The notes under the pieces: model-generated | Told to the model about the DNA's origin: nothing | The model's input: the letters and a program-made list of their open reading frames with translations, nothing else | Databases searched by the model: none | Origin: Scatophagus argus | Taxonomy: Eukaryota; Chordata; Actinopteri; Scatophagidae | Direction: 5' to 3' | Assembly (NCBI RefSeq): GCF_020382885.2 | Contig: NC_058513.1 | Location: forward strand, 15,029,641-15,093,640 | DNA: 64,000 bases | Shown: positions 24,142 to 62,086 of the stretch, in pieces | Numbering within the stretch: the stretch's first letter is position 1 | Layout: every line of letters starts with the position of its first letter | Position numbers and translations under genes: made by a program

Positions 24142-24179
<38 letters not shown>

Positions 24180-36800: not shown

Positions 36801-36873
36801 TTTCTTCGTTTTCTATGTAGCTGTGGTCAGCCTGTTTTTAATTGTTATCTTTTTAAAGTGGAAAAATGCATAG
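30823..36873 (+). CDS. Cys-loop ligand-gated ion channel subunit, ZACN/5-HT3-like, array gene B
   Basis: Exons: 30823-30865, 31604-31764, 32253-32297, 32444-32553, 33133-33302, 33500-33657, 35516-35726, 35833-36006, 36472-36557, 36643-36873 (462 aa). Two adjacent ATGs begin the signal peptide (MMLAAFLFLLFL); the first is used here. Features in order: Cys of NCSYQDV in the N-terminal helix, loop-D Trp in PYVW, DPNEFCGI, Cys-loop Cys152-Cys166, M1 after KRRS, M2 with Glu266 (-1'), Ser 2', Thr 6', Leu 9' and Glu 20', M3 in exon 8, a Cys-containing cytoplasmic segment (CTCIYD), an amphipathic helix and M4 ending in LKWKNA. The loop-B Trp of 5-HT3 receptors is Val (SFKSVIHT). It has N-glycosylation sequons in exon 6 (NSS, NMT, NAS). 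Exon 9 has a tandem CAGCAG acceptor; the first keeps the 86-base length of the paralogs. Confidence 0.92.
33678..34597 (-). mobile_element. Internally deleted Tc1-family transposon in gene B intron 6
   Basis: The ends are long inverted repeats: 'cattttgttattttacagtc' near 33,703 pairs with 'gactgtaacataacaaaatg' near 34,547, and the adjoining 'ttgtcattatgaggtatttt' type sequence is also mirrored. On the minus strand, 34,206 back to about 33,960 encodes the N-terminal DNA-binding part of a Tc1 transposase (MKSKELSVDLRDSIVSRL, then SIIRKWKKFGTTR). The catalytic domain is missing, so this is a non-autonomous derivative of about 0.9 kb. It begins about 20 bases after the exon 6 donor site. Confidence 0.85.
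34678..35135. repeat. Probable dispersed repeat in gene B intron 6
   Basis: The segment starts with tgtcacga and ends with catgacac, a short imperfect terminal inversion. Inside is an A-rich body with phrases such as 'gacgaggactttatatacac' and 'aggtggaaacaatcagggcg', which I recognise as recurring in teleost genomes. The family is not identified. Confidence 0.45.
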
Positions 36874-39231: not shown

Positions 39232-40574
39232 ATGATGCTTGCAGGTTTCCTCGTTCTGCTCCTCCTCACAGGTAAGCTGGGACAATTTTGTATGCAGGTG
39301 AGAAATGTTTGCAGTTTACTGTCATATGATATCATTCCTGCTGCTTATTTATTTAATTTAAAAAAAAAATTAGGCTTAAGGAGCCAGAACCTCCAAGTTG
39401 CTTTGTTTTTTTAGTGACATGAGCAAGAAAAGACAACAGGCTGTTGTAGCTATGAAGTGTGTCTTTCACATCATGGATTTCAGAGAATACGATTAAAAAA
39501 AAATAATTGTTGTTTGTGAATGCGAGAAAGCTGGCCTCGCTGGTTTGAAATTTTTTAACATTTTTTCTTATCCCAACTGGGTTGATTTGATTAGAAAATT
39601 AAACTTCTTACCTTGATTTGAACAACATGTATCAGATGGATGAATGCGAAAAATGCTCACATTTAAAAATCTGAACTAATGAGATAAAACCTCGCAATCC
39701 TGCCAACGCCCATCTCATAATGGCCTTTCAGTGACCACAATCACTGGATAGTACTGCATAATATCTGTGAGCTGATGTTTTTCAAGGTCTGCTAATAAAT
39801 TTATCAGCAGTGGACCCACAGAGATTACTGTTTGTCATTTCTTCTACTTTATATGCAATTAAGAGCTTATACAGTAAATCAGATGGACTTCAAAGACAGG
39901 AATAAGTACACAATAAGAGTACAGGATGGACACAACAAGCTGCATGTTATGAATAACATTCCAGTCATTTCATTTGTTATCACAACTCAAATGCAAATGT
40001 AAATGTCATAGACAAAAAAACTAATGTAAAGAGTGATAATGTCCACACAGGTTGGAGGATGACGAGGTTGGGGTGATGGTTGGGTCACCTGACTTCTCCT
40101 TTCCTGCTTGTATGCAACAGTTTAATGGTGTTGATTGGCACAGGCAAAGCTTAATGCAGACTACGCAAAATGACACCCAGAAAGCTTAAAATGTGTGAAA
40201 TGACACGTGCTGGCACCCTATTTATATACTGTCCCACTGTCTATACTGTATACTGAAATAGCAAATGTAGCAGCTGGCAATCTTATATATTTCATAATTA
40301 TGTTAGTTACCCGTCCACTAAACCGTTTCTGCAGGAGAGCAGCAGCCAGCTGAAGGAGGAGTCCATTGCCTTGGAGAAGCTCTCAGATGAGTTGAGGGAG
40401 GTGGAGAAAACGCTGTCTCTGCCGCCCAGCACCAGGAAGGAAGAAGGGAAGTCTGTCTATTGGACCAGAGTGGCTGAAAGAGTCAACAAAACTGTCTTCA
40501 CTTTGTATGCCACAGTGGCCAGTTCATTTTTAGATCAGATCTTTAGTCAGCTTAACAATGCAGCTGGTGAGTAA
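39232..40574 (+). pseudogene. Deletion pseudogene of the channel family (array copy C)
   Basis: Only two coding pieces remain: exon 1 (39232-39271, signal peptide MMLAGFLVLLLLTG with a good GTAAGC donor) and exon 10 (40335-40574, ending TAA). Exon 10 still encodes the amphipathic helix (EKLSDELREVEKTLSL) and a degraded M4. Exons 2-9, meaning the whole ligand-binding domain and M1-M3, are absent. The first ~620 bases after exon 1 resemble intron 1 of gene B, for example 'cctgccaacgcccatctcat' in both, and the similarity ends near 39,890, about where B would be 95 bases short of exon 2. Exon 1 ends in phase 1 and exon 10 starts in phase 0, so direct splicing would shift the frame. No functional channel can be made. 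Confidence 0.85.
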
Positions 40575-41848: not shown

Positions 41849-44800
41849 ATGATGCTTCCTGGCTTCCTCTTTCTGCTCCTCAACGCAGGTAAGGTGTTCC
41901 TGTTTCTTTGGATAATCCAAAGACCTCAGTGTGAACAGCTGTCACTGGAATTAATTTCTATCAAGGAAATGGTCTCAGTGAAAACTGTTCAGAGTGAAGT
42001 CTGCGGTTGTGATTGAAACATAAGAACTGAATCAGGTTTTCAGACAGTTCAGACTGCTGCTGGCCGTGTTTTGTCAAATTGCATTTGGTGATATATATGT
42101 ACAGCAGATGGATCTCTTCTGAAGAGCCTATTTGGACTGGCTGTAAAAAATCATTTAGTGGTCGAGTAGATGCAGTTGTACTCCACATGCCTGTGACCAC
42201 AAGCACCGGATACTATTGCAGATCCTTCTGAGCTGAGCTTCTGTCAGCGTTCATTTTGACAGATATTTCAGAATGAACATTAATTTGCAGATGGGAATGC
42301 GTTTTAGTTTTAGTCTCATTTTAGCCATCAAGTCTCCTTCATTGTTGTAGTCTATTTTTAACAGCTCAAAATGTTTTAGTCCAGTTTTAGTTGATGAAAA
42401 AACATTATTTTTTAGTTAAAATGTTTTCTCTCCTTTATCTAATTCAGCTAGGCTAATATAGGGATCAGATATCAGTATCTATAGTAACCAAACTAGAGTG
42501 CAGCATCTGTTGTACAGAAGCTTTGCAGGTTTGCAGGCAGCAAACTGCTCACTGTCTGAAAAGACCACAAGCCTCTGGAGCATCATGATCATCTTCAGCT
42601 CCATGTTTGCATGATTTCTTTTAAAACATGCTGGGCAGTTTGTTCCGTCTGTTGTGTATGTTGTACCTACAAATATTACCATGAAAATAACACTTGTGCT
42701 GAAATAATTAGTTTATTTTAATTAATATATCTACCTGGCCTTAGAGGTAAGGAATCATGCGCAAATATCTTTAAAATAAATTACCATGTAATCTTTATTC
42801 AGTTTAGTATATCTTTATACTGCCAAAGCACAACAAAAGGTATCTCATGACACTTTCCAAGTACAGCAGGTGTAGAGTAAACTCATTAATACAGTTCAAG
42901 AAACGACAGTTTGACTAGATATAGTAATTGCAATTCCCTATTCACAGCTTTAGATAGATAGATAGATAGATACTTTATTGATCCCGAGGGAAATTCAATT
43001 AAATTCAATTCAAGCTTTAGGATTTTTCTGGCATCAGATTTAGCAAAATTACAAATTCATTGTCCAAATATATAAATAAAGGCTATGAATTAGAGCAGCA
43101 ATAAATGATGCACATTTAGATGCAGTGGGGAAGTGAAAAGCCAACATGTTTTTGAACATGAAACAAAACATGTAATGATTTCATCTTAGTTGTTATTACA
43201 AGAGATTCATTTTTAATTTGTCAACGTCTTAGTCACATGAAAGGTAAAGTACATTTCCAGTATATTTCTGCATTTCTCTCTGTTTAAGATAATGTCTCTG
43301 GTGGGATTGTGTCCTGATGATTTTAGTTGTGGATGGGGAGTCCGTGTGCTGTTATCAGGATGTTTTAAACTACCTGAACTTGACCAAAAGCAATGAGCTG
43401 TTCTCCATGACGCGACCTGTTAAAGACTATAAACAGCCCACGCAAGTATCCCTGGAAGTGCTGCTGTATGCCATTCTAGATGTGGTAAGTGGTTAAAGCT
43501 TTAGCATGTTGTTAACGTTTACTTTAGGTACCATATATCTGTTACATCATGTTACACGAGAGATAGCAGTGCCACAGTGTGGTCATTTATAAACCAATAG
43601 TTTTCACTAATGATTCTGTCTGAACTGTTAGTCCGCTGGGAAAACTGGAATCATAAACACCATTAGTTGAACACGCTGGCTTTAAAGATCTTCTCATATG
43701 TTTATTTGCTTGTTTATAGAGAGAGATTGACCAGACATTCGTTCCTTACGTTTGGATTGTCACGGTGAGTTCACTCTGAGAGAAACGGCAAGCCGAATTT
43801 CTTTCCTTCATGATGGAATCTCTTTGTTCTTACCCAGACTATTTCATTTCTAATCAGTTCTCCTGATGTACTTCTTGTTTGTCTCGGCAGACCTGGCAGA
43901 ATCAATACATTCAGTGGAACCCAGATGACTTTTGTGGTATTGAGGCTGTTTCGCTTCCTACTGAAGTTTTGTGGAAGCCAGATATAACTATTGAAGAAAT
44001 GTAAGTGGAAATGCACTCACACTCACAAATTTACTTACACACACCAGCAACTACAGCAGCTGGTGGTGCTGGAGGGAATCGCGATACTGTTTAGAAACAA
44101 CAATACATTTAACTTGGGTCGACGAGACCCAAAGAGGTAAAGCCCCTCGTCCAACTCTCCATCAGAGCTTTGTTTTAGAGGACAAGCCCGAACTACTATA
44201 GTATTTCGTGTGTTTTTGCTTTAAGGAAATTGTTCGTATTACTGTCTTGAGTCTGTGTGCCAATATGTCCTGAATACGTGAGTGGATTTTGAATGGGTCC
44301 AAGCATACTCAGAATCAGTTCTGATGATGGAGTGCACCACAATCAAAAGGAAATGACAGATACTTCTTGGAATTTGTTTTTACAGAAAATAATCTTCTGT
44401 CTATCTCTGTGTGGTATCCCACAGGACAGAAAAAGACAAAGCCCCTCCAAGTCCTCATCTCACCATCTACAGTAACGGTTTAGTCACCGTTCAGAACGAC
44501 CAGGTGCTGGTGAGCACCTGCAGGATGCATGTTTACAAATTCCCCTTTGACATTCAGAGCTGCAACCTCTCGTTCAAGTCTGTTGTACATTCAGGTGAGT
44601 CCGTGACCAGTTGTGTCCCTGTGTCTTTGGTCACTGGTGACTGATTTTTACAGACTGTTGTCACTTGAACACATCATCAGATAACACCACATAGCAGACA
44701 CTCTCTCTCCACTGGTCTGCAAGGAAACCTCACAGTTTGTTTTTTATCTCCCACACCAGTCAAGGATATACAGCTTGTCCACGATCTGAGCTCTTCAGAG

Positions 44801-47773
44801 ATGTCGCATGCAAGGATGCGGACCCAGTATGAGTGGCTCTTCATCAACATGACAGTCAGCAACAATACTGTCTACATGTTAGACCTCAAACAAGATGTGT
44901 TGATTTACACTGTAAGTATTACTGGTAACAAACGTGCTGAGGTGAAAATTAAATACTCACTCACGTACGGTTTGAAGCTTCAATTCTCACAAGGACGAAC
45001 ATTTTTGTCTTCAGGGTTCATGCTGGCTCACTGTTACACAGCAATCGTTAATGCTATTAGAAACACCTGTGTTTTTCCTGCTGTCACACTCAAAATGTAC
45101 TCTGTGAAGAAGATCAGGAGGATGATGAGCAAATTGTGCAACGTCCCCTTAGACCACATCAGATGTGGTCCAAAGTCACAAAAAATGAAAGACTTGCATT
45201 CCCTCAGGTGATATAATATCAAATTCTACATCAAAATGCTTCATTGTTATTGATAAGTAAAGTGCAATGCATTTTCCCGCAATTAAAAGTTAAAAATTAA
45301 AACAATCTATGCTTCATCCTAAATGATTAGTATGTAAGACATAAAAACTGGTTTCCAAATCAAATTGTTACCTTTGGTGGGAGCAGATTGGTGCTACATT
45401 GCTCTATGGTTGCTACAGTTTAGCCTTTCTCAGACATGCAGGAGTCAGAAGATCAACTGACACATAAACGCCATTTCACAGATCTCCATGAAGAGGCGGT
45501 CTCTCCTCTATGTTGTCAACTTCTTGCTGCCCATCCTGTTCTTCTTGTGTCTGGACTTGGCCTCCTTCCTGATCTCAGACAGCGGAGGCGAGAAACTCAG
45601 CTTCAAGGTCACTGTGCTGCTGGCCGTCACTGTGATGCAGCTGATTCTGAATGAAATTCTGCCCTCCTCATCAGATAAGATTCCACTCATAGGTAAAGGA
45701 AGATAAAGAGCCTACTGTCATGCTAGCCACTCTGCAAAGCTTTACTTTACAAGGCAGAGTGCCGTGAGCTAAATGCTAATGTCAGCATGCTAACATACAA
45801 TTAAAATGCTAACACGGGCACGTTAAGTAAGTTTAATACAATCAGTAATGTTTGCATCAGTTGCTGATTAGAACTAAACACAAAGTACAGCAGGGGCTGA
45901 TGGGAATTTCCTTAATTTTGCAGTTTGTCACTAGATGAAATGTTAAGGCATCAAACCAAAGTCATTAAAATACATCCTGAGGGAAATTGGGAAATGAATA
46001 CCCATACAGTGTTTCATGAAACTCCATCCAACAGCCACTTGGACATTTTTGTCAATACCACAAATGCCAACTTCATGGTGGTGCTAGAGAAAAGTTAGGG
46101 GATCACCAAAATCAGAGGGCTTCATCCTCTGGGAATATCTGAACAAATGTTCTTCTTTTTGCATGCAATAGTTGTTGAGACAAAAACAAGGAATGTGAAA
46201 GTCTTGTCTTTATTTGACTATAATTCATACAAACAGAAACAGTCCACACTGATTCAATGTGTAAATATTCTCTTGCATTAATAACGCTGCGCCCCCCAGT
46301 GCTCTACTGTATTGGGATTTTTGGTTTGATGATGCTGAGCCTCCTGGAGACGATTTTGGTGATGTATCTGATGGGGAAAGATGCTGCATCTGAAGACAAC
46401 AACACAGACGGAGAGAGAAACCTGAGAGAAGACTGTGGCAGACAGAGCAAAGCCAAAAGAGGTGAGATCCATTGCAATGACGACATCATGAATATTCATG
46501 CAAACCAAGCCAAATTCTCAAAGAATTTCAGAACCACAAAAGGATTTCTTCAAGACAAGGTCTCTTCTTTGGGTGGCACGGTGGTGCAGCGGTTAGCACT
46601 GTCACCTCATAGCAGGAGGGCTTGGGGTTTTGAATCCTGGCCTGGGCCCTTCTGAGCAGAGTTTGCCTGTTCTCCCTGTGCCTGCGTGGGTTTTCTCCAG
46701 ATACTGAGGCTTCCTCCTACAGTCTCAAAAACATGCACATTAGATTAACTGGCCACTCTACATTGCTCAGCATGTGAGCGAGTGTGTCTGTCTGTCTTTC
46801 TTTGTCAGCCCTGTGATTGGCTGGTGACCAGTCCAGGATTTACCACGCCTCTCGGCCGTTGTCAGCTGGGATAGGCGCCAGTATAAAGGCGGTAAAGCAG
46901 TATAGAAAATGGATGGATATTCTTCTTCAGCAGGCTAATGTGTCAATAAGTGCAGAGGCATAGAAGACAGTCTACAACTCATAATGTGTAATGGTTGATA
47001 AGATTATAAACATCTTTAGTGTCTAATATAATAAAGTATCTAATGTCCTTCCAGATGACAAGGCAAGGACTGATGTGTTTGCTGATGAAACACCAGCTGA
47101 ACTGCTAAAGGTTGGAATTTCGTGTTTTATTTAGTCATGAAAAAGGTTTTGGTTTGACATACCAAGGTTTTCTGCTGTCTGCTGTGGATGAGAGAAAGTG
47201 TTCAACGCACTACAACAAGAAAGCATGCGAACAGACAGATACGCAAGCCAAATATCCTCAACATTTTGACAACATGTACCTTTCGTATGAATCCTTCAGA
47301 CAGATACAACTCAAGCCACTTGCAAACACCAGTTTGTGAGCACTCATCTGTATAAAACACAAGCAAATTTAAAAACACTGCATGTTAAATCAATAGCACC
47401 TGAACCGAGTTACAGGCACAGCAAAAGTTTCCATCCTCTCATCACTTATACTGTACACATAAATCTGAATATCTAATGTATCAGGTGGCGATGTTATTTG
47501 GTTCTTAATCACACTAATTAAACCCTGGCTTCGAAACCACCTCTGCAGGGTAGCGGCAGCCAGCTGACGGACGTCTTTGAAAAGCTCTCTGATGAGCTGA
47601 GGGAGGTGGCGAAAACACTGGCTCAGGTCCTCGACAGCAGGAAGGAGGAAGGGAAGCCTGGATACTGGACCAGAATGACTAAAACAATCAACAAAGTTTT
47701 CTTCATTTTCTATGTTATAGCTTCCAGTCTGTTTTTACTCTGCATGTTCGTCAGTTGGAATAATACACAATAG
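41849..47773 (+). CDS. Cys-loop ligand-gated ion channel subunit, ZACN/5-HT3-like, array gene D
   Basis: Exons: 41849-41888, 43327-43484, 43720-43764, 43891-44000, 44425-44594, 44760-44911, 45482-45692, 46300-46461, 47055-47110, 47549-47773 (442 aa). The frame is open across all junctions. Signal peptide MMLPGFLFLLL; N-terminal helix CCYQDVLNYL (two adjacent Cys, one matching the paralogs); DPN-type loop reads NPDDFCGI; Cys-loop Cys150-Cys164; M1 after KRRS; M2 with Glu at -1' and 20', Thr 6', Leu 9'; M3 ends SLLETILVMYLMGKD. Exon 9 is 56 bases instead of 86, a clean 30-base loss that removes the Cys motif found in the cytoplasmic loop of A, B, E and F. The loop-B Trp is Val (SFKSVVHS). The predicted role is a pentameric cation-channel subunit with an unknown ligand. 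Confidence 0.92.
42949..43015 (-). mobile_element. Short LINE 3' tail in gene D intron 1
   Basis: Read on the minus strand, this is 'ttccctcgggatcaataaag' followed by a CTAT tandem tail, a common 3' terminus of fish non-LTR retrotransposons. Only the last ~65 bases are present. It is a 5'-truncated insertion with no coding part. Confidence 0.55.
45740..46190. repeat. Dispersed fish repeat in gene D intron 7
   Basis: The stretch with 'atgctaatgtcagcatgcta', 'ttcatggtggtgctagagaa' and 'tgcaatagttgttgagacaa' corresponds to an interspersed sequence frequent in teleosts. A partial copy in opposite orientation lies at about 4,990-5,150. The family is not identified. Confidence 0.5.
46565..46918 (+). 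mobile_element. Second copy of the tRNA-derived SINE, in gene D intron 8
   Basis: This has the same arrangement as the copy at 21,850: the A box TGGTGCAGCGG, a decayed B box (TTTTGAATCC), a shared body and a GGAT tail. It differs at many positions, including several small deletions, and the flanking duplication is unclear. It is therefore older than the rnf157-side copy. Confidence 0.8.
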
Positions 47774-49656
47774 TACGATTGAACTATGGCTCCCTTTGTT
47801 ATTACTGGAGAGACTTATCGTCGAACAAAATGTGTGTATGTGTGTATTTGACATGTTCACAAGTAGTTCGGTATATAGAAAATTTAAAAATTCTTTCATG
47901 TTCTTTTGATGTTCTATCCTGCATCAACACAACTGTAACAATGTTTACTGCATGTTCCACACATCTGTCACATACTCTGTATACCATATCATAGTAGAGT
48001 CACATACCTTTGATATGTAATATGAGCAACACTCTTGCTCTTAATAAATCTACGAGATGCATGATAAAAATATGTAAGTATTCAAGTTTTCTTCTGTTTT
48101 TCTTGTCTATTGCATGTCAAATTCAAAGTCAAAGGGCATTTAGGGAGGAAAAGATTACAACAGTATTCTCCTCTGGTATGCAACACTGCAGGCGTATCAA
48201 CAAAATGAAAGTCCGTCATCCATCCCTTTTCTACACCGCTTGTATGTGCTTCGTCAAAGTGAGAGTTTTAAGCATTTTATTTTTCTTCATTTAGGGCTCA
48301 AACCATTTCAAATGTAAATAACACATTTAGCGTGTGAATTGCACTGCTTTTAACCTTTGGTAAAATAGCAACTATTGAAGAAAAGAAGAAAAACATCACG
48401 ATAAGGTTATAAACAGTATATATAAATCTGCAAGAAGTTTTGCTAAGTGCTTTTTAAGTTGCTGTAATTGAATCAGGTTTGGATACAGTTCTGAGTGCTG
48501 CTGGCCATGAGTCTATCAGCATGATGGCTGATGGATCTCAAATGAAGGGAATGTTTAGATTCAGCAAGTTGCAAAAATGCCCACAGAAATAAATCATTCA
48601 ACGGTCAAGTGGAACTGGTCCCAAAGCCTACTGATGCCCATCTCGTGATGGTTTTTGTCTGACCGCAATCACTGCATTTAACTGCAGATATCTGTGAGCT
48701 GCACTGAGATGAATTATTATTATGTAGTATTTGCTAACATAAAGTGCATCTGGTGAAGATGAATGCCCTTAGTCTTATACTGTCTCCTCGGTGTTACCTG
48801 AGTGTCTGCCAATTCAAGTGGATCAACGGACAGAACATCTTTTGCATCCCGCTAGCTTCATAAAAATCATCAATTCATTTCATTAAGTCAGAGGCAGTGA
48901 ATACATACAAAGATCAGATGCATTTTCAAGGTGTTTTTTTGCAATTTAAAATATTAATGTGCCCTTGTTACTGAAGATAAGGACTGGAACAGTCTTGTTA
49001 TTTGTGTAACCTCAAGGACAACATTTGTGATACAGATGTTTCCAATTTAAAAATCAAGGATGTGGACACAGTACGGGGGAGGGTGACAGCTTATATACAG
49101 AGTTTTTGGACATTTGCAGAAGCAGTTAAATTTTTTGGAATTTCAAAACTTTTTTTAAAAGAGCAGGCCATATTTGATAAATGTCTGTTTCAGAGAGAGA
49201 AAGAATGAACCAAAACAGTAAAAAGTTGCTGTCACAGCTGAAGAACGATAAAATGCTTCTCAAAACTGAAAAGAGCTGCACAGTCACTGGTGATTCTCTG
49301 TGGGTTCATCAGTAAGGACAAGCACTTTGACATAAGCAGTCATGAGATCCGTTATTGATATAACAGTATTGATTAGAGCCACTTGATCTAAATCCTCAGT
49401 AGAAATAAAGCTGGAGCTGATCCATCATCTCTTTTGTGGTTTTGTGGAGTAAAAGTACATCTGGTCAGGAAACGCTGCCTCAGACCACTGACATAAAAGA
49501 AAACAAGCAAAGGGTTGGTCATTCAGTTGGCCCAACCCTCTGCCACGGTGAAGATAAGAGCGAGACAATATTTAAGAAAGGCACAGAGGGCATTGATGCG
49601 CATTTGCTGTGCAGACCTCCCACAGGCTTCGGATTCCTGTCGGTCCTGAACTCAAG
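47774..49656. other. Intergenic region between genes D and E, with a relic segment
   Basis: The gene D 3' UTR probably ends at AATAAA at 48,043. The stretch 48,470-48,720 resembles intron 1 of B, C and D rather than an intergenic sequence (see findings). The last 400 bases, from about 49,260, are nearly identical to the region upstream of gene F and include TTGGCCCAACCCTC at 49,527. No open reading frame with recognisable content is present. Confidence 0.5.
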
Positions 49657-50958
49657 ATGCTTGCTGGCTTCCTCTTTCTCCTTCTTGCAGTCCTCACAGG
49701 TAAGGTTCACATCCTCACAGAGTCCCTGACGCTCCGGATCCACAGACCTGTGAACTGTGATCAGATTCCATGTGAATTCATTTTTACCAGGGAAGTCATT
49801 TTAAAGAGCAAAGTCTGCGCTAAGTTGAGATTAACGTGGACACAGCTTGCACGAGAGGTTGAGTGAGAATTTTTTTATTATCTTATTGGCTTTTACACTC
49901 AGTTGCCACTTAATAAGATAGTAAAACAAAGAGTACTACCTTTATGAAATTTATAATGTTCAGTTTTTGTATAAATTGATTGAGGGGAGCGTTGCAGCGT
50001 GGAGGCTGCAGTTGGTGGTGCTGTTATGGGAGACATTTCTGAAACTAAGCAAACCCTGACTGTTATAAGTATGGGGGACAAAATAATACTTCGTAATAAT
50101 ACAATACAACTCACCAGACCTCACACTTAATTTAGTGATGGACAGCAGATGTTGTATTAGACAGTGTTAACTGTTACCTGAACAACAGGCGACTGAGTTT
50201 GGAGGTCACATTTCCTTACACGAGATCAGAGTCAGATGTTGTTGTGTCAGTTGTATGGAAGTGTTCCTGCTTGCAATTAGTTTTCTAACACTGTTTTTGG
50301 AGGGCTATTTTGAATATTATAACAAAAACAAAGCAGGTCCAACATCATCACATGAGGAATTCAGAATCAGTGGACACACAAAATGATTTTCTCTCAACTC
50401 TCTCATAGAGAATGTGTCTTGTTGTTTTCGCTGTAGATGGGGAGTCCGTTGACAGTGAGTGCAGTTATCAGGATGTTATAAAGAGTCTGAAGTTAAAAGA
50501 AAGTACGCACGCCATGACCCGGCCTGTCAGGAACCACAGCAGACCTTTAGTGGTAACCCTGGATGTACTAATCTATGCCATTCTAGATGTGGTAAGTTGA
50601 TATGAACTCTGATGTTTGTAAAGTGTAACTTATATAAACAATGAACCTGGAAAAAACTTTGACTCAATTTTCTTTGCTCACAGAACGAGAAGGACCAGAA
50701 ATTTATTTCTTACGTCTGGATTGACATGGTAAGTCCTCTTTGAGGATGACAGATCTTTGACTGAATGAGTTCCCAACTGTCACTCTGCTGGGTAACATTT
50801 TTGTCCTTGTTTTCCTCTGAAGATGTGGACGGATGAATTCATTTCTTGGGATCCTGGCCAGTTCTGTGGTATCAGTCATCTTATTCTTCCGACTAAACAT
50901 CTGTGGAAGCCAGACCTAACTATTGAAGAGATGTAAGTTTAAATGCATATGCATGGTG

Positions 50959-50994
<36 letters not shown>

Positions 50995-53805
50995 TCACTG
51001 CTGTTAGAGCAGTTATTATGGAACAGGATTTAAACATGTTCAATTGACAATAGCATTTAACACATATGTGGTATTTATTAAATTTTTTACTGTTCAATGA
51101 CTTATCAAAGCCCAGATCCTTCATCAGTACTCTGTGTATATACACTTTCAGTTTATTTTCCATGAAGGTATAATAATTAATTCATTGTGTGAAAATTATT
51201 CTAAAGCATATGTGGTTGTTGGTTACAGGACAGAGAAGGACAAAGCCTCTCAGAGTCCTTATCTCAGTGTCAACAGCGCCGGTAGAATCTTACTTAGAAA
51301 TGACATGATGGTGTCCAGCACCTGCAAGATGCGGGTTTACAAATTCCCCTTCGACATTCAGAGCTGCCACCTCTCCTTTAAGTCTATCATTCACAATGGT
51401 GAGCCTGTGACTTGTTGTTCCTCTTCTTGTACTTGTTGATGTTCTCATGTCTTTGATGACTTCTACAGTTTGTTGTCATGTGAACAGAAATGCCACACAT
51501 TTCGTCTTTGTTAACCTGCAGGGAAACCTCACAGTTTGATTTTTTATCTCCCACCTCAGCTGAACAAATGAACTTTGTTCAACTGACTAACTCTACAAGC
51601 AACACAGAGTGGTCTCGTGCAATGATGCGGTCTCAGTCTGAGTGGCGCTTTATCAACATGGAAATCTTCAACAAAACTGTCAATAACTTTGGAGTTAAAC
51701 AAAGCGAGTTGGTTTGCAAGGTAAGTCATTGTGGATACAGACACAAAGAGGTGGAACATACAATTGTTTATTCCTACTTCTGTGCAAGCACAACAACTTT
51801 AAAGAAATATTTCCATTTTGAGTCTTTATACACTATATGGACAAAAGTATTTGGTCATCTGACCATTAAACCAACAGGGACTTTGCAAAGACAGCTTTGC
51901 AGCTGCAACAGCTTCCACTCTTCTGGGAAGGCTTTCCACAAGATGTTTTTTCATTTGTGACCATTCATGCAGTAGAGCATTTGTGAGGTCACACACTGAT
52001 GTTGGACCAAAAGGCCTGGCTCACAATCTCTGTTCCAGTTCATCCCAAAGGTGTTGGATGGGGTTGAGGTCAGGGCTCTGTGTGGGCCAGTCAAGTTCTT
52101 CCACACCAAACTCATCCAACCATGTCCTTATGGAGCTTTGCTTTGTGCACTGGGGCACAGTCATGCTGGAATAGAAAAGGTCCTTCCCTAAACTGCTACC
52201 ACAACACTGGAAGCATAGCATTGTCCAAAATGTCTTGGTATGCTGAAGCATTAAGATTTCACTGTTTCATAGATCAACATGAAGAGACGCCCTATCCTCT
52301 ACGTTGTCAACTTTATGCTACCCATCATGTTGTTCTTTGGTTTGGACTTGGCCTCCTTCCTGATCTCAGACAACGGAGGCGAGAAGCTCAGCTTCAAAGT
52401 CACCGTGATGCTGGCCGTCACTGTGATGCAGCTTATCCTGAATGAAATCCTGCCCTCCTCATCAGACAGGATTCCTCTGATAGGTAGAGACGCTCAGTGT
52501 TACCTTTATTGAACTGCATTTCTTATGAGCACATTATTGTCCACATTAATGGTGCTGCTTCCTCCCTCTCAGCGGTCTACTGCATTGGGATCTTTGGTTT
52601 GATGATGCTCAGCCTCCTGGAGACGATTCTGGTGATGTATCTGATCGAGAGAGACAACGAGTCAACGAGCCTGTTTGAGGACTGTAAGGGGAAATGCAGC
52701 AAAGTCAGTTTCCAGAATTGTTTTAGAGGTGAGATTCAAAAGAACAAACAGAGACGTTTGTATGTTTATGATCTCAAAAGATGAAGTCAGACACCTGATC
52801 AGTGCAGTAGTTACTCCAGATGTTCACCTATTGTTACTTAGATTGGATTCTCTGAAACAACTGCATGTAAAACATTTAATACAGGAAGATTAATTGCATC
52901 ATGTGTGTTTAATGCATCTTTTCAGATGTTAAAACATGTGTTCCCGGTGTCTGTGTGCGTGATGTGTCCCATGGTGAAACATCTTCTGAATTGCTGGCAG
53001 CGACCAAAGAGGTGAGGACTTATGTAGCATTTTTGTTTTCGAATTTAACCCAAATTACCACAAAGAAAATTTTGTTTACCATCATACCATGGCTACTGAA
53101 TTAAGTTAAAACAGTTGTTTCCTCCTTCAGTTGTGGTGCAAAACCATCCACTGCCTTCATAAAATCCAAGACTATGGTCAAACTGCTGGAGCTATTGGCT
53201 GATTTTAAGTACCCCAATGGGGGTAATATGTATGTTTCCCCAATACTAGATGTTAATGACATTATACATATGCGCCATGGTGTGAATGCGTGTTGTAGTA
53301 AAAACGTAATTATCTCACATTTCCCTCGACATTCCCTCCAAGTCTGTTTTACATTCAGTCATTGCAGTATGTGATTCTGGGTTGGTTTGCCTCCACAGAA
53401 CATACAGCTTGTCAAGTTTTGTCGATTACTTGCAGTAGAGCTGAGGCTGAAAAAATATCTGCACGTCTAGATACCTCTTGCATTACAATTATGAAAATTA
53501 ACGTCAAATTTAGAAACTGCCTATTAGCCTAATCACAACGTTTAACCACCATTACTTTTTAACAGGGGAGCAGCAGCCAACTGATGGAGGAATCCCACGA
53601 CTTTGAAAAGATCTCAGATGAGTTGAGGGAGGTGGTGAAAACTCTGACTCTGATACTCGACAGCAAAAAGGAAGAAGGAAAGCCTGGATACTGGACCAAA
53701 ATGGCGACAACAATTGACAGAGTCTTCTTAGTTTTCCATGTCATAGCTGCCACTTTGTTTTTAATCTACATGTATTCCTGTTGGACTGAAGAAGAAGTAA
53801 ACTAA
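49657..53805 (+). CDS. Cys-loop ligand-gated ion channel subunit, ZACN/5-HT3-like, array gene E
   Basis: Exons: 49657-49699, 50437-50591, 50684-50728, 50823-50932, 51229-51398, 51560-51720, 52273-52483, 52573-52728, 52926-53011, 53566-53805 (458 aa). Signal peptide MLAGFLFLLLAVL; N-terminal helix Cys in ECSYQDV; DPGQFCGI; Cys-loop Cys150-Cys164; M1 after KRRP; M2 with Glu265 (-1'), Ser 2', Thr 6', Met 8', Leu 9' and Glu 20'; M3 SLLETILVMYL; cytoplasmic CVPGVCV motif in exon 9; M4 followed by CWTEEEVN. Just before M1 it has LVCK, where A, B and D have IYT, so it carries an extra Cys. Exon 6 holds two N-glycosylation sequons (NST, NKT) missing from gene F. It is the near-identical partner of F. 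Confidence 0.92.
51829..52255 (-). mobile_element. Tc1/mariner-derived element in gene E intron 6, right end deleted
   Basis: The left inverted repeat CACTATATGGACAAAAGTAT starts at 51,831. The minus strand encodes a Tc1 transposase remnant (LDEFGVEELDWPTQSPDLNP, then IQHLWDEL), with Gln in place of the catalytic Glu and frame damage upstream. Compared with gene F, the right 215 bases, including the right inverted repeat, are missing. The deletion stops only about 12 bases before exon 7. The element is at the same place in F, so it predates the E/F duplication. Confidence 0.75.
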
Positions 53806-55059
53806 CTGTGCTAAAAGCAAAGCTGGTGAGGAAAGGTGCACCTGACTGCTCAGGTGGTATTTAGTCCTTCACACAAGGACGGTGGCTCACATCAAGCACA
53901 GCTGTTGTGCTATAATATTCTAGCACACTAATATGCCATGAAGAGGCAGACTCATGCTTTTGCGTTGCAGTAATCAAAGTCTTTTTTGCACAAGAAATCC
54001 ACCAATACAAATATTAAAATTACGGTTAAGCATGCAGGTGTAGGTGCTGTGCAACATTCACTGTGTTAATCTTGTAATCCATCAATAATCTTTGATGAAT
54101 CTCTTTTTAGATTGTTCTTCTCCTACTATGCATCAAACCTGCCACTTTGTAACTTAGGCTTTCTGTTACAAATCTGTTGTTGCCAAACCCAAGCAGAGAC
54201 GCCACATTTGAATAAGTTTCTGACTTGGCTCGTCTAGAGCCAAAGAAGTCATTTCAAAGCTTCTTGAAAAGACTTCATAGGTGGCCATTTCCTGTGTGAA
54301 GTAAATTGACTCTTAAGTGTAAAATTTCTTCAGTGTAACTGTCAGACTCATGAACATATGTAATATTCTGAAGAGATACAGTGAGTTTCGATATAGTTTC
54401 TGTATAGTTTCTGCAATATCATTGTGCTTGCTGTGTTCTTTCACATCTTTGTCTGCATTAGCTGATGTGTTCATAATTAAATGACAGTCCTGATACTGGC
54501 TCTCAAGAACGTATGAAACTCTCCCTAATGCAGAAATAAACAATAAAAACAAAACCTATCCTATTTTTCTGTCTGTGTGTGGTTGTGGTGAGAATGAACC
54601 AAAACACTAAAGTCTCCTCCAAGACAACCAAAACAGTGAGCTGAAAGAGGATAAAATGCTACTCACAGATGATGGGAGCTGCACAGTCACTGGTGATTCT
54701 CTGTGGGTTCATCAGAAAGGACGAGCACTTTGACATAAGCAGTCATGAGATCCGTTATTGATATAACAGTATTGATTAGAGCCACTTGATCTAAATTCTC
54801 AGTAGAAATAAAGCTGGAGCTGATCCATCATCTCTTTTGTGGTTTTGTGGAGTAAAAGTACATCTGGTCGGGAAACGCTGCCTCAGACCACTGACATAAA
54901 AGAAAACAAGCAAAGGGTTGGTCATTCAGTTGGCCCAACCCTCTGCCACGGTGAAGATAAGAGCGAGACAATATTTAAGAAAGGCACAGAGGGCATTGAT
55001 GCGCATTTGCTGTGCAGACCTCCCACAGGCGTCGGATTCCTGTCGGTCCTGAACTCAAG
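53806..55059. other. Intergenic region between genes E and F
   Basis: The E 3' UTR likely ends at AATAAA at 54,535, a signal also conserved after F (60,486). From about 54,590 the sequence repeats the region upstream of E, giving the tandem-duplication junction. TGGCCCAACC at 54,931 is the promoter word. No gene is present. Confidence 0.55.
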
Positions 55060-56837
55060 ATGCTTGCTGGCTTCCTCTTTCTCCTTCTTGCAGTCCTCAC
55101 AGGTAAGGTTCACATCCTCACAGAGTCCCTGACGCTCCGGATCCACAGACCTGTGAACTGTGATCAGATTCCATGTGAATTCATTTTTACCAGGGAAGTC
55201 GTTTTAAAGAGCGACGTCTGCACTAAGTTGAGATTAACGTGGACACAGCTTGCACGAGAGGTTGAGTGAGAATTTTTTTATTATCTTATTGGCTTTTACA
55301 CTCAGTTGCCACTTAATAAGGTAGTAAAACAAAGGGTCCTACCTTCATGAAATTTATAATGTTCAGTTTTTGTATAAATTGATTGAGGGGAGCGTTGCAG
55401 CGTGGAGGCTGCAGTTGGTGGTGCTGTTATGGGAGACATTTCTGAAACTAAGCAAACCCTGACTGTTATAAGTATGGGGGACAAAATAATACTTCTCAAT
55501 AATGCAATACAACTCACCAGACCTCACACTTAATTTAGTGATGGACAGCAGATGTTGTATTAGACAGTGTTAACTGTTACCTGAACAACAGGCGACTGAG
55601 TTTGGAGGTCACATTTCCTTACACGAGATCAGAGTCAGATGTTGTTGTGTCAGTTGTATGGACGCATTCCTGCTTGCAATTAGTTTTTGGGGGGCTACTT
55701 TTATTATTATAACAAAAACGTTTTTGTATAAGGAAATTACGTGGAGCGATGAGAATTGCCATCACACCTATTTATTATCGCTTGGACTGACTGATCCCCA
55801 CAGAAGCTGCTGCTGCATTTCATCACTTTAATGAGCTTATGAACACTGTTACCTGCTAGTATTACCTGCCGATGTTACCTGCCGGTTTTACCAGCCGGTG
55901 TTACCTGCTGGTGTTACCTGATGGCCTTAAGCACCATCAATTCAGAGTAGCAGTACAAATACAGATGATTTAGTTGGTTGAAAAGTTAAAGAAACAGATG
56001 GCGGTTTAATTGCTCATCACACCAATCTGTTCAGCAGTTCCTGCTGAGATATTTCTACTGAATAACCTTCTGCTAGCAGGTCCAACATCATCACATGAGG
56101 AATTCAGAATCAGAGGACACACAAAATGATTTTACATGAGATATAAGCAGCATAAACCAAACATGGGTGTTGTTCACAGTTCTAATTGTTCCAAGGCAAA
56201 AGTTTAGAACATATTAATCAGTGTCACATTTCATGATTTCTTACCTTTCATCAGGAAACTCTCTCATAGAGAATGTGTCTTGTTGTTTTCGCTGTAGATG
56301 GGGAGTCCGTTGACAGTGAGTGCAGTTATCAGGATGTTATAAAGAGTCTGAAGTTAAAAGAAAGTACGTACGCCATGACCCGGCCTGTCAGGAACCACAG
56401 CAGACCTTTAGTGGTAGCCCTGGATGTACTAATCTATGCCATTCTAGATGTGGTAAGTTGATATGAACTCTGATGTTTGTAAAGTGTAACTTATATAAAC
56501 AATGAACCTGGAAAAAACTTTGACTCAATTTTGACAAAGAAAAAACTTTGACTCAATTTTCTTTGCTCACAGAACGAGAGGGATCATAAATTTATTTCTT
56601 ACATCTGGATTGACATGGTAAGTCCTCTTTGAGGATGACAGATCTTTGACTGAATGAGTTCCCAACTGTCACTCTGCTGGGTAACATTTTTGTCCTTGTT
56701 TTCCTCTGAAGATGTGGAAGGATGAATTCATTTCTTGGGATTCTGACCAGTTCTGTGGTATCAGTCGTCTTATTCTTCCGACTAAACATCTGTGGAAGCC
56801 AGACCTAACTATTGAAGAGATGTAAGTTTAAATGTAT

Positions 56838-56881
<44 letters not shown>

Positions 56882-59812
56882 CTGTTAGAGCATTAAGTTA
56901 TTATGGAACAGGATTTAAACATGTTTAATTGACAATAGCATTTAAAATATATGCTGTATTTATTGTATTTGTTACTGTTCAATGACTTATCAAAGCCAAG
57001 ATCCACATTAAGTCTGTCTGCTTCACCAGTACTGTATATGCAAAGAATGTTTTTTTAAATTTGTTCCTGCATGTCATGTAAATGCACTGTAGTTCGTCTC
57101 ATACTTTCAGTTTATTTTATGTGACCGTATGATAATTAATTCATTGTGTGAAAATTATTCTAAAGCATATGTGGTTGTTGGTCACAGGACAGAGAAGGAC
57201 AAAGCCTCTCAGAGTCCTTATCTCAGTGTCGACAGCGACGGTACAATCTTACTTAGAAATGACATGATGGTGTCCAGCACCTGCAAGATGCGGGTTTACA
57301 AATTCCCCTTCGACATTCAGAGCTGCCACCTCTCCTTTAAGTCTATCATTCACGATGGTGAGCCTGTGACTTGTTGTTCCTACAAGCAGCTTATATGTTC
57401 TCATGTCTTTGATGACTTCTACAGTTTGTTGTCACGTGAACAGAAATGCCACACATTTCTTCTTTGTTAACCCGCAGGGAAACCTCACAGTTTGATTTTT
57501 TATCTCCCACCTCAGCTGAACAAATGAACTTTGTTCAAATGTCTAACTCTGCAAGCAACACAGAGTGGTCTCGTGCAATGATGCGGTCTCAGTCTGAGTG
57601 GCGCTTTATCAACATGGAAATCTTCAGCAAAACTGCCAATAACTTTGGAATTGACCAAAACGAGTTGGTTTGCCAGGTAAGTCATTGTGGATACAGACAC
57701 AAAGAGGTGGAACATACAATTGTTTATTTCTACTTCTGCGTAAACACAAGAACTTTAAAGAAATATTTCCATTTTGAGTCTTCATACACTATATGGACAA
57801 AAGTATTTGGTCATCTGACCATTAAACCAACAGGGACTTTGCAAAGACAGCTTTGCAGCTGCAACAGCTTCCACTCTTCTGGGAAGGCTTTCCACAAGAT
57901 GTTTTTTCATTTGTGACCATTCATGCAGTAGAGCATTTGTGAGGTCAGACACTGATGTTGGACCAAAAGGCCTGGCTCACAATCTCCGTTCCAGTTCATC
58001 CCAAAGATGTTGGATTGGGTTGAGGTCAGGACTCTGTGTGGGCCAGTCAAGTTCTTCCACACCAAACTCATCCAACCATGTCTTTATGGAGCTTTGCTTT
58101 GTGCACTGGGGCACAGTCATGCTGGAATAGAAAAGGGCCTTCAACAAACTGTTGCCACAACATTGAAAGCATAGCATTGTCCAAAATGTCTTGGTGTGCT
58201 GAAGCATTAAGATTTCCCTTCAGTGGACGTACAGGACTGAGCCCAACCCCTAAAACACAGCCCCATAAAGCTGTGTGTCTGAATACTTTTGTCTATATAA
58301 CGTATGTTCTTTCACGATTTCTGTTTTGAATGTGTTTTGGACCATGGTGGACGTGGACAGATTGGGACAGATTGGGACAGATTAGCTCGTTGTTTGTTCA
58401 GGATTTAGATCAACTCCCCTGACCCTTGAACACTGTTTCATAGATCAACATGAAGAGACGTCCTATCCTCTACGTTGTCAACTTTATGCTACCCATCATG
58501 TTGTTCTTTGGTTTGGACTTGGCCTCCTTCCTGATCTCAGACAACGGAGGCGAGAAGCTCAGCTTCAAAGTCACCGTGATGCTGGCCGTCACCGTGATGC
58601 AGCTTATCCTGAATGAAATCCTGCCCTCCTCATCAGACAGGATTCCTCTGATAGGTAGAGACGCTCAGTGTTACCTTTATTGGACTGCACTTCTTATGAG
58701 CACATTATTGTCCACATTAATGGTGCTGCTTCCTCCCTCTCAGCGGTCTACTGCATTGGGATCTTTGGTTTGATGATGCTCAGCCTCCTGGAGACGATTC
58801 TGGTGATGTATCTGATCGAGAGAGACAACGAGTCAACGAGCCTGTTTGAGGACTGTAAGGGGAAATGCAGCAAAGTCAGTTTCCAGAATTGTTTTAGAGG
58901 TGAGATTCAAAAGAACAAACAGAGACGTTTGTATGTTTATGATCTCAAAAGATGAAGTCAGACACCTGATCAGTGCAGTAGTTACTCCAGATGTTCACCT
59001 ATTGTTACTTAGATTGGATTCTCTGAAACAACTGCATGTAAAACATTTAATACAGGATGATTAATTGCATCATGTGTGTTTAATGCATCTTTTCAGATGT
59101 TAAAACATGTGTTCCCGGTGCCTGTGTGCGTGATGTGCCCCATGGTGAAACATCTTCTGAATTGCTGGCAGCGACCAAAGAGGTGAGGATTTATGTAGCA
59201 TTTTTGTTTTCAAATTTAACCCAAATTACCACAAAGAAAACTCTGTTTACCATCATTATAGCATGACTACTGAATTATGTTAAAACAGGTGTTTCCTCCT
59301 TCAGTTGTGGTGCAAAACCATCCACTACCTTCATAAAATCCAAGGTTATGACCAAACTGCTGGAGCTATTGGCTAATTTTATGCTCTAAGCTCTAACCTC
59401 CCAGTTATTGTAGTTGATTGCAGTCGATGATGATGGGTTGGTTTGCCTCTGTAGACCATACAACTCGAGTATTATCAATTACAATTAGGGCTAAGGTTGC
59501 ACATCTAGATGCCTCAAATTATCGTCAAATTTAGAAATTGTCTAATCACATCATTTAACCATTACTTTTTAACAGGGGAGCAGCAGCCAACAGATGGAGG
59601 AATCCCATGACTTTGAAAAGGTCTCAGACGAGTTGAGGGAGGTGGTGAAAACTCTGACTCTGCTGCTCAGCAGCAAGACGGAGGAAGGAAAGCCTGGATA
59701 CTGGACCAGAATTACGAAAACAATCGACAGAGTCTTCTTGGTTTTCTATGTCATAGCTGCCACTTTGTTTTTAATCTACATGTATTCCTGTTGGACTGAA
59801 GAAGGAAACTAA
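55060..59812 (+). CDS. Cys-loop ligand-gated ion channel subunit, ZACN/5-HT3-like, array gene F
   Basis: Exons: 55060-55102, 56298-56452, 56573-56617, 56712-56821, 57188-57357, 57516-57676, 58444-58654, 58744-58899, 59097-59182, 59576-59812 (457 aa). Exons 1 and 8 are identical to those of gene E and exon 7 differs by two silent changes, while the extracellular exons 2-6 differ by 22 amino acids. Domain order is as in E: signal peptide, ECSYQDV helix, DSDQFCGI, Cys-loop Cys150-Cys164, M1-M3, CVPGACV cytoplasmic motif, amphipathic helix, M4. Charge changes in the extracellular part include N to D, A to D, G to D, K to D and T to K. Intron 1 is longer than in E because of a ~350-base segment with a minisatellite. 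It should be a functional channel subunit; the ligand is unknown. Confidence 0.92.
55848..55923. repeat. Minisatellite in gene F intron 1
   Basis: About six imperfect copies of a 12-13 base unit close to gttacctgccggt occur in a row. It lies in a segment of about 350 bases (55,720-56,080) that is absent from the otherwise nearly identical intron 1 of gene E. It could be an insertion in F or a deletion in E. Confidence 0.7.
56836..56880. repeat. (AC)n microsatellite in gene F intron 4
   Basis: This is an uninterrupted AC dinucleotide run of about 45 bases just after the exon 4 donor. Gene E has a shorter run at the same place (about 50,960-50,990). A similar (TG)n run lies in gene A intron 2 at 24,145-24,176. 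Confidence 0.9.
57785..58303 (-). mobile_element. Tc1/mariner-derived element in gene F intron 6, both ends present
   Basis: The left inverted repeat CACTATATGGACAAAAGTAT and a right end ACTTTTGTCTATATAACG are both visible. The minus strand carries the same broken transposase remnant as in gene E (PIQHLWDEL, with Gln for the catalytic Glu). It is about 520 bases long and non-autonomous. Its site and orientation match the copy in E. Confidence 0.78.
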
Positions 59813-62086
59813 CTGTGCTAAATACTGTAGGGTTGAGTTCTAGTTCCCAGACTATGTCATCACAAAGTCACTTGATTCTGCAGGTAATGTGTCATGTGAC
59901 ACCATCTGGTACGCTGTGGTAATTTCAAAGTGTATGCCACCGTCCCTAACCACACGGCTCACAGATACCTACTCCTACTCCTAACAATCTTTTTCACATC
60001 TTCTCCTGCTACTTTGGCAAAGCTAATAAGGAAAGGTGCACTTGACTGCTCAGGTGGTATTTAATCCTATACACGCTTAGCATGTTTCATACACAGATAT
60101 TGTATTGTAATATTCTCGTACACTAATATGCCACAAGGAGGAAGATTTAAGTCTCTGCTGTGCAATAATCAGTGATTTTGAAGGACAGAAATCCACGAAA
60201 ACAAATATTAAAATAAAAGTTAAGCATGCAGGTGTACACAAATTGCATGTTGTCCTTCATAAATATATCTTTGCTGTGTAACATTTACTGTGGAAATCTT
60301 ATAATCCACCCAAAATATATTAAAACTAAATACAAAATGTGTTTCTATATGGGTTCAGTAAGTTAATTGTCTTTCTGCTGTGTTCTTTTACATCTCTGTC
60401 TCCATTACTCTGCTTTAGCTGATGCATTCATAATAACAGTCTGCATAATTGCTCTGAAGATATTTATCAAACTCTCTAATACTGAAATAAACAATAAAAA
60501 CAATACCTATCCTTCCTGTATTTTCTGTGTGTGGTGAGACCGATGAGGTGAGCTGCAGAGCCCCTGATGATTCTTTGTGGATTCCCATAAGTAGCCACGA
60601 GATCCGTTGTTAACATAACACTGATTAGAGCCACTCCTGAGAGGAGAAACTGCAGGAGATCCGGAATACGATCATCTCCTTTGTGGTTTCAAAGTGATGC
60701 ACCATACAAAATGCACACTTTCTGAGTGTTTCTCCTCCACTGATGACGTTGACCTCAGTTGACCGTGAACATACGAAGAACATGAATCCAGGAGGACCTC
60801 AAACAACTATTGCTGAACAGACAGGACCTGAGCCAAACAACGTCCTCAGCACCACAGAAAAAAGAGCCACCGATGCTCAAACATTCACACAGGAATGAGA
60901 AAACAAACTAACACACACACATAGAGAAAGAGAGATGAGGATAAAATGAAAATAAAAAGACTGATGAAATGGAAAACAAGCTTTAGAGAGTTCGCTCAGA
61001 CTCTCCCACCTCCTCACACATGAACAGCTGTTGCACAGTGGGCACGGCTGTTTGTTTTGCTGATAGTTACAAAAATTGTTGGACAAAACACAAGTAGGTA
61101 CGTTATTAACAAAAAAAAAAAATCCTCCAAATTTCTGAACTGGTAAATGCACACTTATGAAAATGCGTCCCCTCCAAGAATTGGCACCTTAACATGATGA
61201 TGAGTTTGTGCATCCCTGTGAACCCGGGACCTGTCATGGAGCAGTAGCTCTTTGTCCTTGTTGAAGAGCCAGACTTAAGATTATATTCATAGACGCTAGA
61301 TGAATCGGCCATGAGGAAGCAGTTGGAACATCTCCTCTTTGGCGGGGAAGGAACAATCATTGGTATACAAAAAATATAAATTGATTAATTGGTAATAAGA
61401 TGAATGAATGAATTTCCTGACAATCCATAGTCCATACTAAAGTTAGTTTGACTTGTAGAGCCTTTGTGTTGGGACGTCTCGGCTCCCTCTTGTCTACAGG
61501 CTCTGTGAGTCCTTTTGGAACCGTTTCCCTCCAGAATGGTCTCAAGGTTTTAACGGCTACAAATGCAGTGTATTTTATTTTTCTTCCCCGTGATCCCAAC
61601 TCACAGTCGTAGGTTTTATTAGTGGTATTTGTTTGTATTTATTGACGTGCTGCTCTGTTAGCCTAGCAGTACCACAGTTGTTAATGTTGTTTCTCCCAGT
61701 GCGCTGAGTCCTCCGGTCCTGCAGGTGGCGCTGGTCGCTTCAGCGTTAACGCGCTATCGTTCAGTTAGTGACGTGGATTTTCATTGAGGGCAGGCAGTGT
61801 TGCCAGAAACTCAGATTTGCCAACGTTTCTCAGCCTTTTCCACTAACTTTCTTCATATTTAGAAGTCGGATCATTCATTTACTTTCTTTCGCTCGTCCCA
61901 CTTGAACACAGTTTTGCCACAGCTTTCAGAAGAGGTGAGCGGATCATGTAAAACGATAATGTTGCAGGTGGTTTCCTGGTCTCTGCTAGTCAAAAGTATC
62001 TGCAGTACAAACTGTTAAAACTGGTTCAAAATTAACTCGTGTGAGTGTTTTTGTTTACATTAACTCTACGCTGTGTTTTCTCACAG
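59813..62086. other. Intergenic region between gene F and lrrc59, including the lrrc59 promoter
   Basis: The F 3' UTR ends near AATAAA at 60,486. At about 60,540-60,720 there is a diverged copy of the upstream region of E and F with no gene after it. A stretch at 61,160-61,220 ('cccctccaagaattggcacc') may be part of a fish interspersed repeat. A noncoding first exon of lrrc59 probably ends at 61,934 (AGAAGAG before GTGAGC), so the promoter lies at roughly 61,650-61,900. No coding region is recognised. Confidence 0.5.

Follow-up and report, generated by a model that had tools for sequence, protein, structure and literature searches.

In the TLR1/TLR6 genes of mammals and the TLR2A/TLR2B genes of birds, gene conversion holds the membrane and signalling portions alike and leaves the ligand-binding portion able to diversify, and some sites have been inferred, from a comparison of many species, to be under positive selection (PMC3125219). 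The chemotactile receptors of octopus, as presented in a review (PMC11526382), are expanded Cys-loop channels, with tandem clusters, that have abandoned their original neurotransmitter; in them, the sites under positive selection lie chiefly within the ligand pocket. Here we analyse a 64-kb window (that is, the whole stretch of DNA under study) of the genome of the fish Scatophagus argus (contig NC_058513.1, positions 15,029,641 to 15,093,640), in which genes for 5-HT3-like Cys-loop channels (A, B, a remnant of C, D, E and F) form a tandem array, all on the plus strand. We focus on the twins E and F, in which the exons for the extracellular ligand-binding domain differ almost only at replacement sites.

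Like TLR1/TLR6, E and F are tandem receptor duplicates with the membrane part held alike and the ligand part diversified. The TLR pair belongs to another protein family, and its conversion tract leaves out part of the ectodomain; exons 2-6 of E and F, by contrast, fall within the putatively homogenised core and appear to have changed after conversion. The octopus receptors, unlike E and F, are nicotinic-derived and cephalopod, with function and structures that have been established. Closer to hand, medaka olZAC, a proposed orthologue of the zinc-activated channel ZAC, is, like the array genes, a fish Cys-loop channel close to 5-HT3; it is opened by zinc and stands equally close to 5-HT3 subunits and human ZAC (PMC13036004), and an expression screen also concerns it (PMC7979870). 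Among the literature matches listed, chiefly non-subscription, none dealt with selection or conversion in an array of 5-HT3-like genes from fish.

Replacement and silent changes between E and F

Both genes keep intact open frames (458 residues in E, 457 in F) and GT-AG borders at nine of nine introns. Over the 641 bases of exons 2-6 (155 + 45 + 110 + 170 + 161), alignment and codon counting give 22 replaced codons (23 bases) against one silent change, in the proportions 2/0 in exon 2, 3/1 in exon 3, 4/0 in exon 4, 4/0 in exon 5 and 9 codons (10 bases)/0 in exon 6. The pore exons 7-8 stand at 0/2, and for exons 9-10 the counting method yields approximately 13.5 replacement changes and 6.5 silent ones. 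An earlier note on this DNA, made by eye, had reported the same per-exon counts, the total of 22 against 1 and the 0/2 of the pore exons, and in all of these it was exact.

By Nei-Gojobori-style counting, exons 2-6 have a replacement divergence (dN) of 0.046 and a silent divergence (dS) of 0.008, with one change in about 124 silent sites, so that their ratio omega is 5.7 (one-sided Fisher p = 0.036); the remaining exons give 0.44 by counting and 0.67 by likelihood (not significant). The replacement/silent split of 23/1 in exons 2-6 differs from the 13.5/8.5 found elsewhere in the gene (Fisher p = 0.009, rounded counts). A custom-written pairwise codon likelihood model fits omega 9.4 (p = 0.0019) for exons 2-6 at a fitted transition/transversion bias (kappa) of 5.7. 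Across kappa from 1 to 5.66 and two codon-frequency models, the likelihood-ratio p runs from 0.028 down to 0.002 and omega spans about 5-9 depending on this bias, the best grid value being 5 or 8 and the lower 95% bound approximately 1.2-2 on a coarse grid; noncoding transitions and transversions (51/26) suggest a kappa near 4. Exons 5-6 are significant on their own (p = 0.003, likelihood).

Because the choice of exons 2-6 was made with the counts in view, a scan was run over each of the 55 contiguous exon ranges, which gave family-wise p values of 0.054, 0.019, 0.011 and 0.006 at silent fractions of 0.194, 0.24, 0.265 and 0.285, respectively; corrected for the post hoc choice of range, the excess passes the 5 percent level in three of the four settings. 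As the scan compares interleaved sites of the same exons, a patchwork in the neutral rate should not bias it. The E/F pair also stands out from the nine other pairs among A, B, D, E and F (omega 0.21-0.49 in the ligand-binding domain and 0.19-0.26 in the membrane part), all of which are older than E/F, share history and, in several cases, are near saturation at silent sites. The within-exon replacement excess is real but modest.

With residues placed by alignment to 5-HT3A, 13 of the 22 changed residues fall in binding loops B-F (p = 0.017; loops A-F make up 77 of 214 residues), on assumed loop limits. The loop changes are at 89; 145, 147 and 149; 186; 195 (two residues, one beside a gap) and 198; and 223, 226, 231, 232 and 235. 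Two N-glycosylation sequons of E, NST at 185 in loop F and NKT at 212 in loop C, have no counterpart in gene F (57551 and 57626); A and B each carry a sequon in the column of the first and another that lies two columns away from the second, which D shares. Gene F is also six charges more acidic than E in the ligand-binding domain (net -1 to -7). Both copies retain W90 and the two cysteines of the Cys-loop. With a simple outgroup rule, the 24 coding base differences in exons 2-6 divide into 8 derived in F, 5 derived in E and 11 ambiguous, and both copies appear to have changed.

Intron divergence and probable gene conversion

The earlier note had further claimed that the ligand-binding exons diverge faster than their introns. 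Introns 2 and 3 do lack substitutions, as it had said: all 186 aligned bases are the same, and the sole other difference is a 28-base insertion in F. After masking (removal of gaps, AC repeats and dense patches, which can only lower the intron figures), E and F differ at 16/166 sites (9.6%) in intron 4, 3/120 (2.5%) in intron 5 and 21/529 (4.0%) in intron 6, compared with 23/515 replacement sites (4.5%) in exons 2-6 and 77/2401 sites (3.2%) in the noncoding sequence as a whole, 5' flank through intron 9; leaving off the patch mask raises the intron figures, for instance to 31/288 in intron 4. In snake venom multigene families, the classic case of such exons, duplicates' coding exons outpace introns in general, whereas exons 2-6 of E and F outpace only introns 2, 3 and 5. 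Replacement divergence is not above that of introns in general, and the claim does not hold as worded. Within the set of introns 2-6, divergence is lowest in introns 2 and 3, so the argument for selection from introns fails as well; we rejected this pair as a neutral standard because the choice is selective, the other introns of the interval differing by 2.5-9.6%. In tandem genes undergoing conversion, introns serve poorly as a neutral yardstick.

The estimates move accordingly with the sites taken as neutral. A rate tied to introns 2-3 gives omega 17.6, and one tied to all noncoding sequence gives 1.68 (p = 0.04). For exons 2-4 taken with introns 2-3, 9/219 replacement sites have changed compared with 1/276 neutral sites (p = 0.004). 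Intron sequence within 60 bp of exons 2-6 differs at 5/362 sites, less than the replacement sites do, but sequence out to 150 bp, at 28/606, does not fall below them.

This unevenness is most likely a patchwork in the local neutral rate left by gene conversion, which the earlier note had missed. The 3' flanks of E and F are 76-78% identical in two BLAST pieces (53817-54042 with 60017-60236, and 54429-54583 with 60376-60535) and, aligned end to end, differ at 151 of 448 kept columns; six self-BLAST core pieces between 49236 and 53207 are 93-99% identical. Neutral differences between the copies are clumped (variance/mean 3.2 in 60-site blocks, with 0 of 5,000 permutations as high). A two-state model of the repeat and 3' flank separates stretches of about 1.9 percent from stretches of about 42 percent divergence (log-likelihood -856 compared with -1104 for one rate), a gain to which the 3' flank contributes much and in which the high state also takes up misaligned patches. 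Short patches of higher divergence lie inside the core, the largest at 50325-50441. In the low state, neutral sites within the span of exons 2-6 differ at 7/619 compared with 23/515 replacement sites (p = 4e-4), a value that is optimistic because the state was picked for low divergence. On the basis of the diverged 3' flanks and a silent divergence of 0.16 in exon 10, together with the contrast between core and 3' end and the clumping of neutral differences, we infer that E and F are old tandem duplicates whose front part, from the promoter to approximately exon 9, was later re-homogenised by conversion.

The same flanks make it less credible that F is a misplaced allele of E. Assemblies do fail at long near-identical tandem repeats, and F could then be a second allele, or a collapsed and mis-polished copy; however, the copies occupy distinct positions in the array and carry large indels in introns 1, 6 and 9 besides the difference in their 3' flanks, and random error would be expected to strike silent sites and introns 2-3 as well. 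We consider an artefact of assembly, haplotype or sequencing very improbable. The age of the duplication, greater than the similarity of the core suggests (3' flank and exon 10), is also what would be expected if the replacements predated conversion and were retained because selection removed the conversion events that would have erased them. Such shielding should have preserved old silent changes alongside, yet exons 2-6 hold the single one described above, and conversion tracts would need to be shorter than the approximately 29-base spacing of the changes; this account seems to us improbable, although less so than an artefact. As another source of the replacements, short conversion from A, B or D was considered and dropped: an informal codon-by-codon inspection noticed no tract, and the Asp-Gly-Thr of F at 135-137 is common to A in protein and not in third positions. 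Intron 6 of E (51827-52259) and F (57783-58430) share a sequence that we take to be mobile-element-like, of which E lacks approximately 215 bases present in F (58217-58430).

We propose that old tandem duplication of a 5-HT3-like Cys-loop channel subunit gave rise to E and F, that gene conversion would then have re-homogenised the pair from the promoter to approximately exon 9, and that, after conversion, nearly all changes in the extracellular ligand-binding domain of one or both copies may have fallen on replacement sites, with the protein sequence of the pore exons left as it was. The most likely cause would be diversifying selection acting on the interface that binds the ligand, and the outcome would be two subunits that share their pore and gating parts but differ in the recognition of a ligand, a metal or proton, a glycan or a partner. 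To this sequence of events (that is, conversion of old duplicates followed by diversifying selection on the ligand-binding domain over a constrained pore) we give about an even chance of being right. The pattern of mutation in the outer part of the two proteins suggests adaptive change, and given that the within-exon excess survives both the codon model and, in most settings, the correction for range, positive selection is a fair best guess.

Several results weigh against this proposal. With the neutral rate taken from introns 2-5, omega is 1.55 (p = 0.15), and from introns 2-6 it is 1.41 (p = 0.20). The entire coding sequence gives 1.0 by counting and 1.6 by likelihood, neither of them significant, and exons 2-4 alone give 3.9 (p = 0.13, likelihood). 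The strongest of the 55 ranges is exons 4-6 rather than 2-6, and at the lowest silent fraction the family-wise p just exceeds the 5 percent level. As just one silent change carries the within-exon ratio, omega is poorly determined. The charge shift and the loss of sequons fall within the range of random replacement (simulated, p = 0.105 and 0.107, respectively) and were set aside as evidence of selection, and polarisation with D, B and A carries little weight because these outgroups are far diverged.

Much of this would be expected under relaxed constraint, in which one or both extracellular domains drift near the neutral rate (some 3-4 percent) and the scarcity of silent changes is chance or a low in the conversion patchwork. 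Replacement divergence lies near that of introns 4-6 and of all noncoding sequence, omega tied to introns 2-5 or 2-6 is indistinguishable from 1, exons 2-4 alone fit an omega of 1, and the silent deficit in exons 2-6 relative to intron sites within 150 bp is no stronger than p = 0.045. Nevertheless, 23/1 is a skewed split for an omega of 1 (p between 0.002 and 0.028; family-wise, 0.006-0.054), the comparison of exons 2-4 with introns 2-3 also points away from drift, and splice sites, frame, Cys-loop cysteines and W90 are intact in both copies. We regard relaxed constraint as the main rival and as a real possibility, although one that we lean against.

Diversifying selection on the ligand-binding exons of E and F, as the earlier note had read them, is plausible but not secured: an omega above 1 (5.7 by counting, 5-9 by likelihood) is significant when measured against silent sites, and at 1.4-1.55 it is not when measured against introns 2-5 or 2-6. 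The note's counts were right and its title was wrong as stated. Were selection to be confirmed, E and F would represent a natural swap of ligand-binding domains on one pore, with 22 selected residues.

Family membership and putative ligand

E matches Pfam Neur_chan_LBD (PF02931, E = 7.1e-41) and Neur_chan_memb (PF02932, E = 3.3e-20). In both E and F the Cys-loop, two cysteines spaced by 13 residues with FPFD among them, reads CKMRVYKFPFDIQSC; neither its cysteines nor FPFD vary among the five paralogues. The domain layout of E and F is that of 5-HT3A, the closest solved relative among the matches listed (198-205 bits, compared with at most 149 bits for alpha-7 nicotinic chains, in the best 60 of 345 PDB matches); a PDB search at a strict cut-off gave 5-HT3A only among the matches listed, and the last exon alone as query gave no meaningful match. 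A, B, D, E and F are 31-37 percent identical to 5-HT3A over 281-284 residues. All five have Cys-Gly (E residue 96) where 5-HT3A has Asp108-Asn109, as well as a conserved N-terminal Cys, and it is possible that they share an extra disulfide.

In mouse 5-HT3A numbering, W90 and E129 are kept in all five genes. In contrast to 5-HT3A, none of the five has W183 or Y234 of the serotonin aromatic box (replaced in A, B, D, E and F by A, V, V, I and I and by W, Q, Q, Q and Q, respectively); R92, Y153 and W195 are changed in five of five and Y143 in four of five. The matching human residues are listed as important for ligand binding in PMC9977066, according to which high conservation holds for W184 throughout 5HT3A, three phyla excepted, and for Y235 among chordates. 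Given the loss of serotonin-binding residues, we do not file E, F and their paralogues as serotonin receptors: probably none of A, B, D, E and F forms a serotonin-gated homomer, the loss of the aromatic box suggests a ligand other than serotonin, and the array genes may encode accessory subunits or else channels with a different ligand.

The array and its neighbours in the window

Feature coordinates are collected in Table 1.

Table 1. Features of the 5-HT3-like array, in window coordinates
Feature	Position	Strand	Basis or remark
Gene E, 5-HT3-like Cys-loop channel subunit	49657..53805	+	Pfam domains; closest solved chain among matches listed, 5-HT3A
Gene E, 10 exons	49657-49699, 50437-50591, 50684-50728, 50823-50932, 51229-51398, 51560-51720, 52273-52483, 52573-52728, 52926-53011, 53566-53805	+	
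Gene F, tandem twin of E	55060..59812	+	exon ends transferred from E via alignment
Gene F, 10 exons	55060-55102, 56298-56452, 56573-56617, 56712-56821, 57188-57357, 57516-57676, 58444-58654, 58744-58899, 59097-59182, 59576-59812	+	
E exons 2-6, extracellular ligand-binding domain	50437..51720	+	Pfam Neur_chan_LBD at E residues 39-235
F exons 2-6, extracellular ligand-binding domain	56298..57676	+	
E exons 7-8, membrane helices M1-M3 with pore	52273..52728	+	F counterpart 58444-58899
Putatively homogenised core of E/F repeat, 5' flank to exon 9	49274..53011	+	two-state model, clumping test, self-BLAST
E 3' flank	53817..54583	+	self-BLAST match to F 3' flank
F 3' flank, counterpart of E 53817-54583	60017..60535	+	self-BLAST
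Paralogue D, used as outgroup	43333..47770	+	exons 2-8 modelled, exon 10 from match, exon 9 weak
Paralogue B	31604..36861	+	exons 2-8 modelled, exons 9-10 from matches
Paralogue A	23925..28242	+	exons 2-8 modelled, exon 10 from match, exon 9 weak
Gene C remnant	40317..40563	+	last exon only found

On one side of the array, the plus-strand interval 8376-9069 holds a RING finger exon (8767-9069; Pfam zf-C3HC4_3, 2.9e-13). With its upstream stretch, this exon resembles MGRN1/RNF157, and RNF157 is presumably a near neighbour of human ZACN, so that the exon may possibly mark synteny with the mammalian ZACN region. At the other end lies a leucine-rich-repeat exon (62767-63108, plus strand; Pfam LRR_8, 6.8e-8) that resembles LRRC59. 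Among 62 of the 175 open frames of at least 60 residues outside the array that were searched against Pfam, only these two exons matched, and Rfam gave nothing at gathering thresholds. ZACN is confined to mammals according to PMC10513076, and no ZAC chain was among the best 60 of 345 or the best 60 of 379 PDB matches. A wider scenario, which we think unlikely, would make the array a radiation, in fish, of non-serotonin Cys-loop channels located at the ZACN locus or close to it, with a common pore maintained by conversion and a ligand interface that selection repeatedly retunes; among vertebrates, the array would then parallel the chemotactile receptors of octopus, and the zinc-gated fish 'ZAC' might have arisen from it. 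If selection on E and F is confirmed, the pair bears on the question, raised in PMC13036004, of whether fish 'ZAC' is an orthologue of mammalian ZAC or a 5-HT3-like radiation.

Judging from its orphan last exon, with no other exons found nearby, gene C is read as a decayed or deleted sixth member of the array. Upstream of this remnant, open frames at 38226-38659 contain a phrase like GRPRTRWRDYVTRLAWKRLGV, which we take to be typical of the ends of reverse transcriptases of fish long interspersed nuclear elements. A possible exon 1 of paralogue D lies near 41852.

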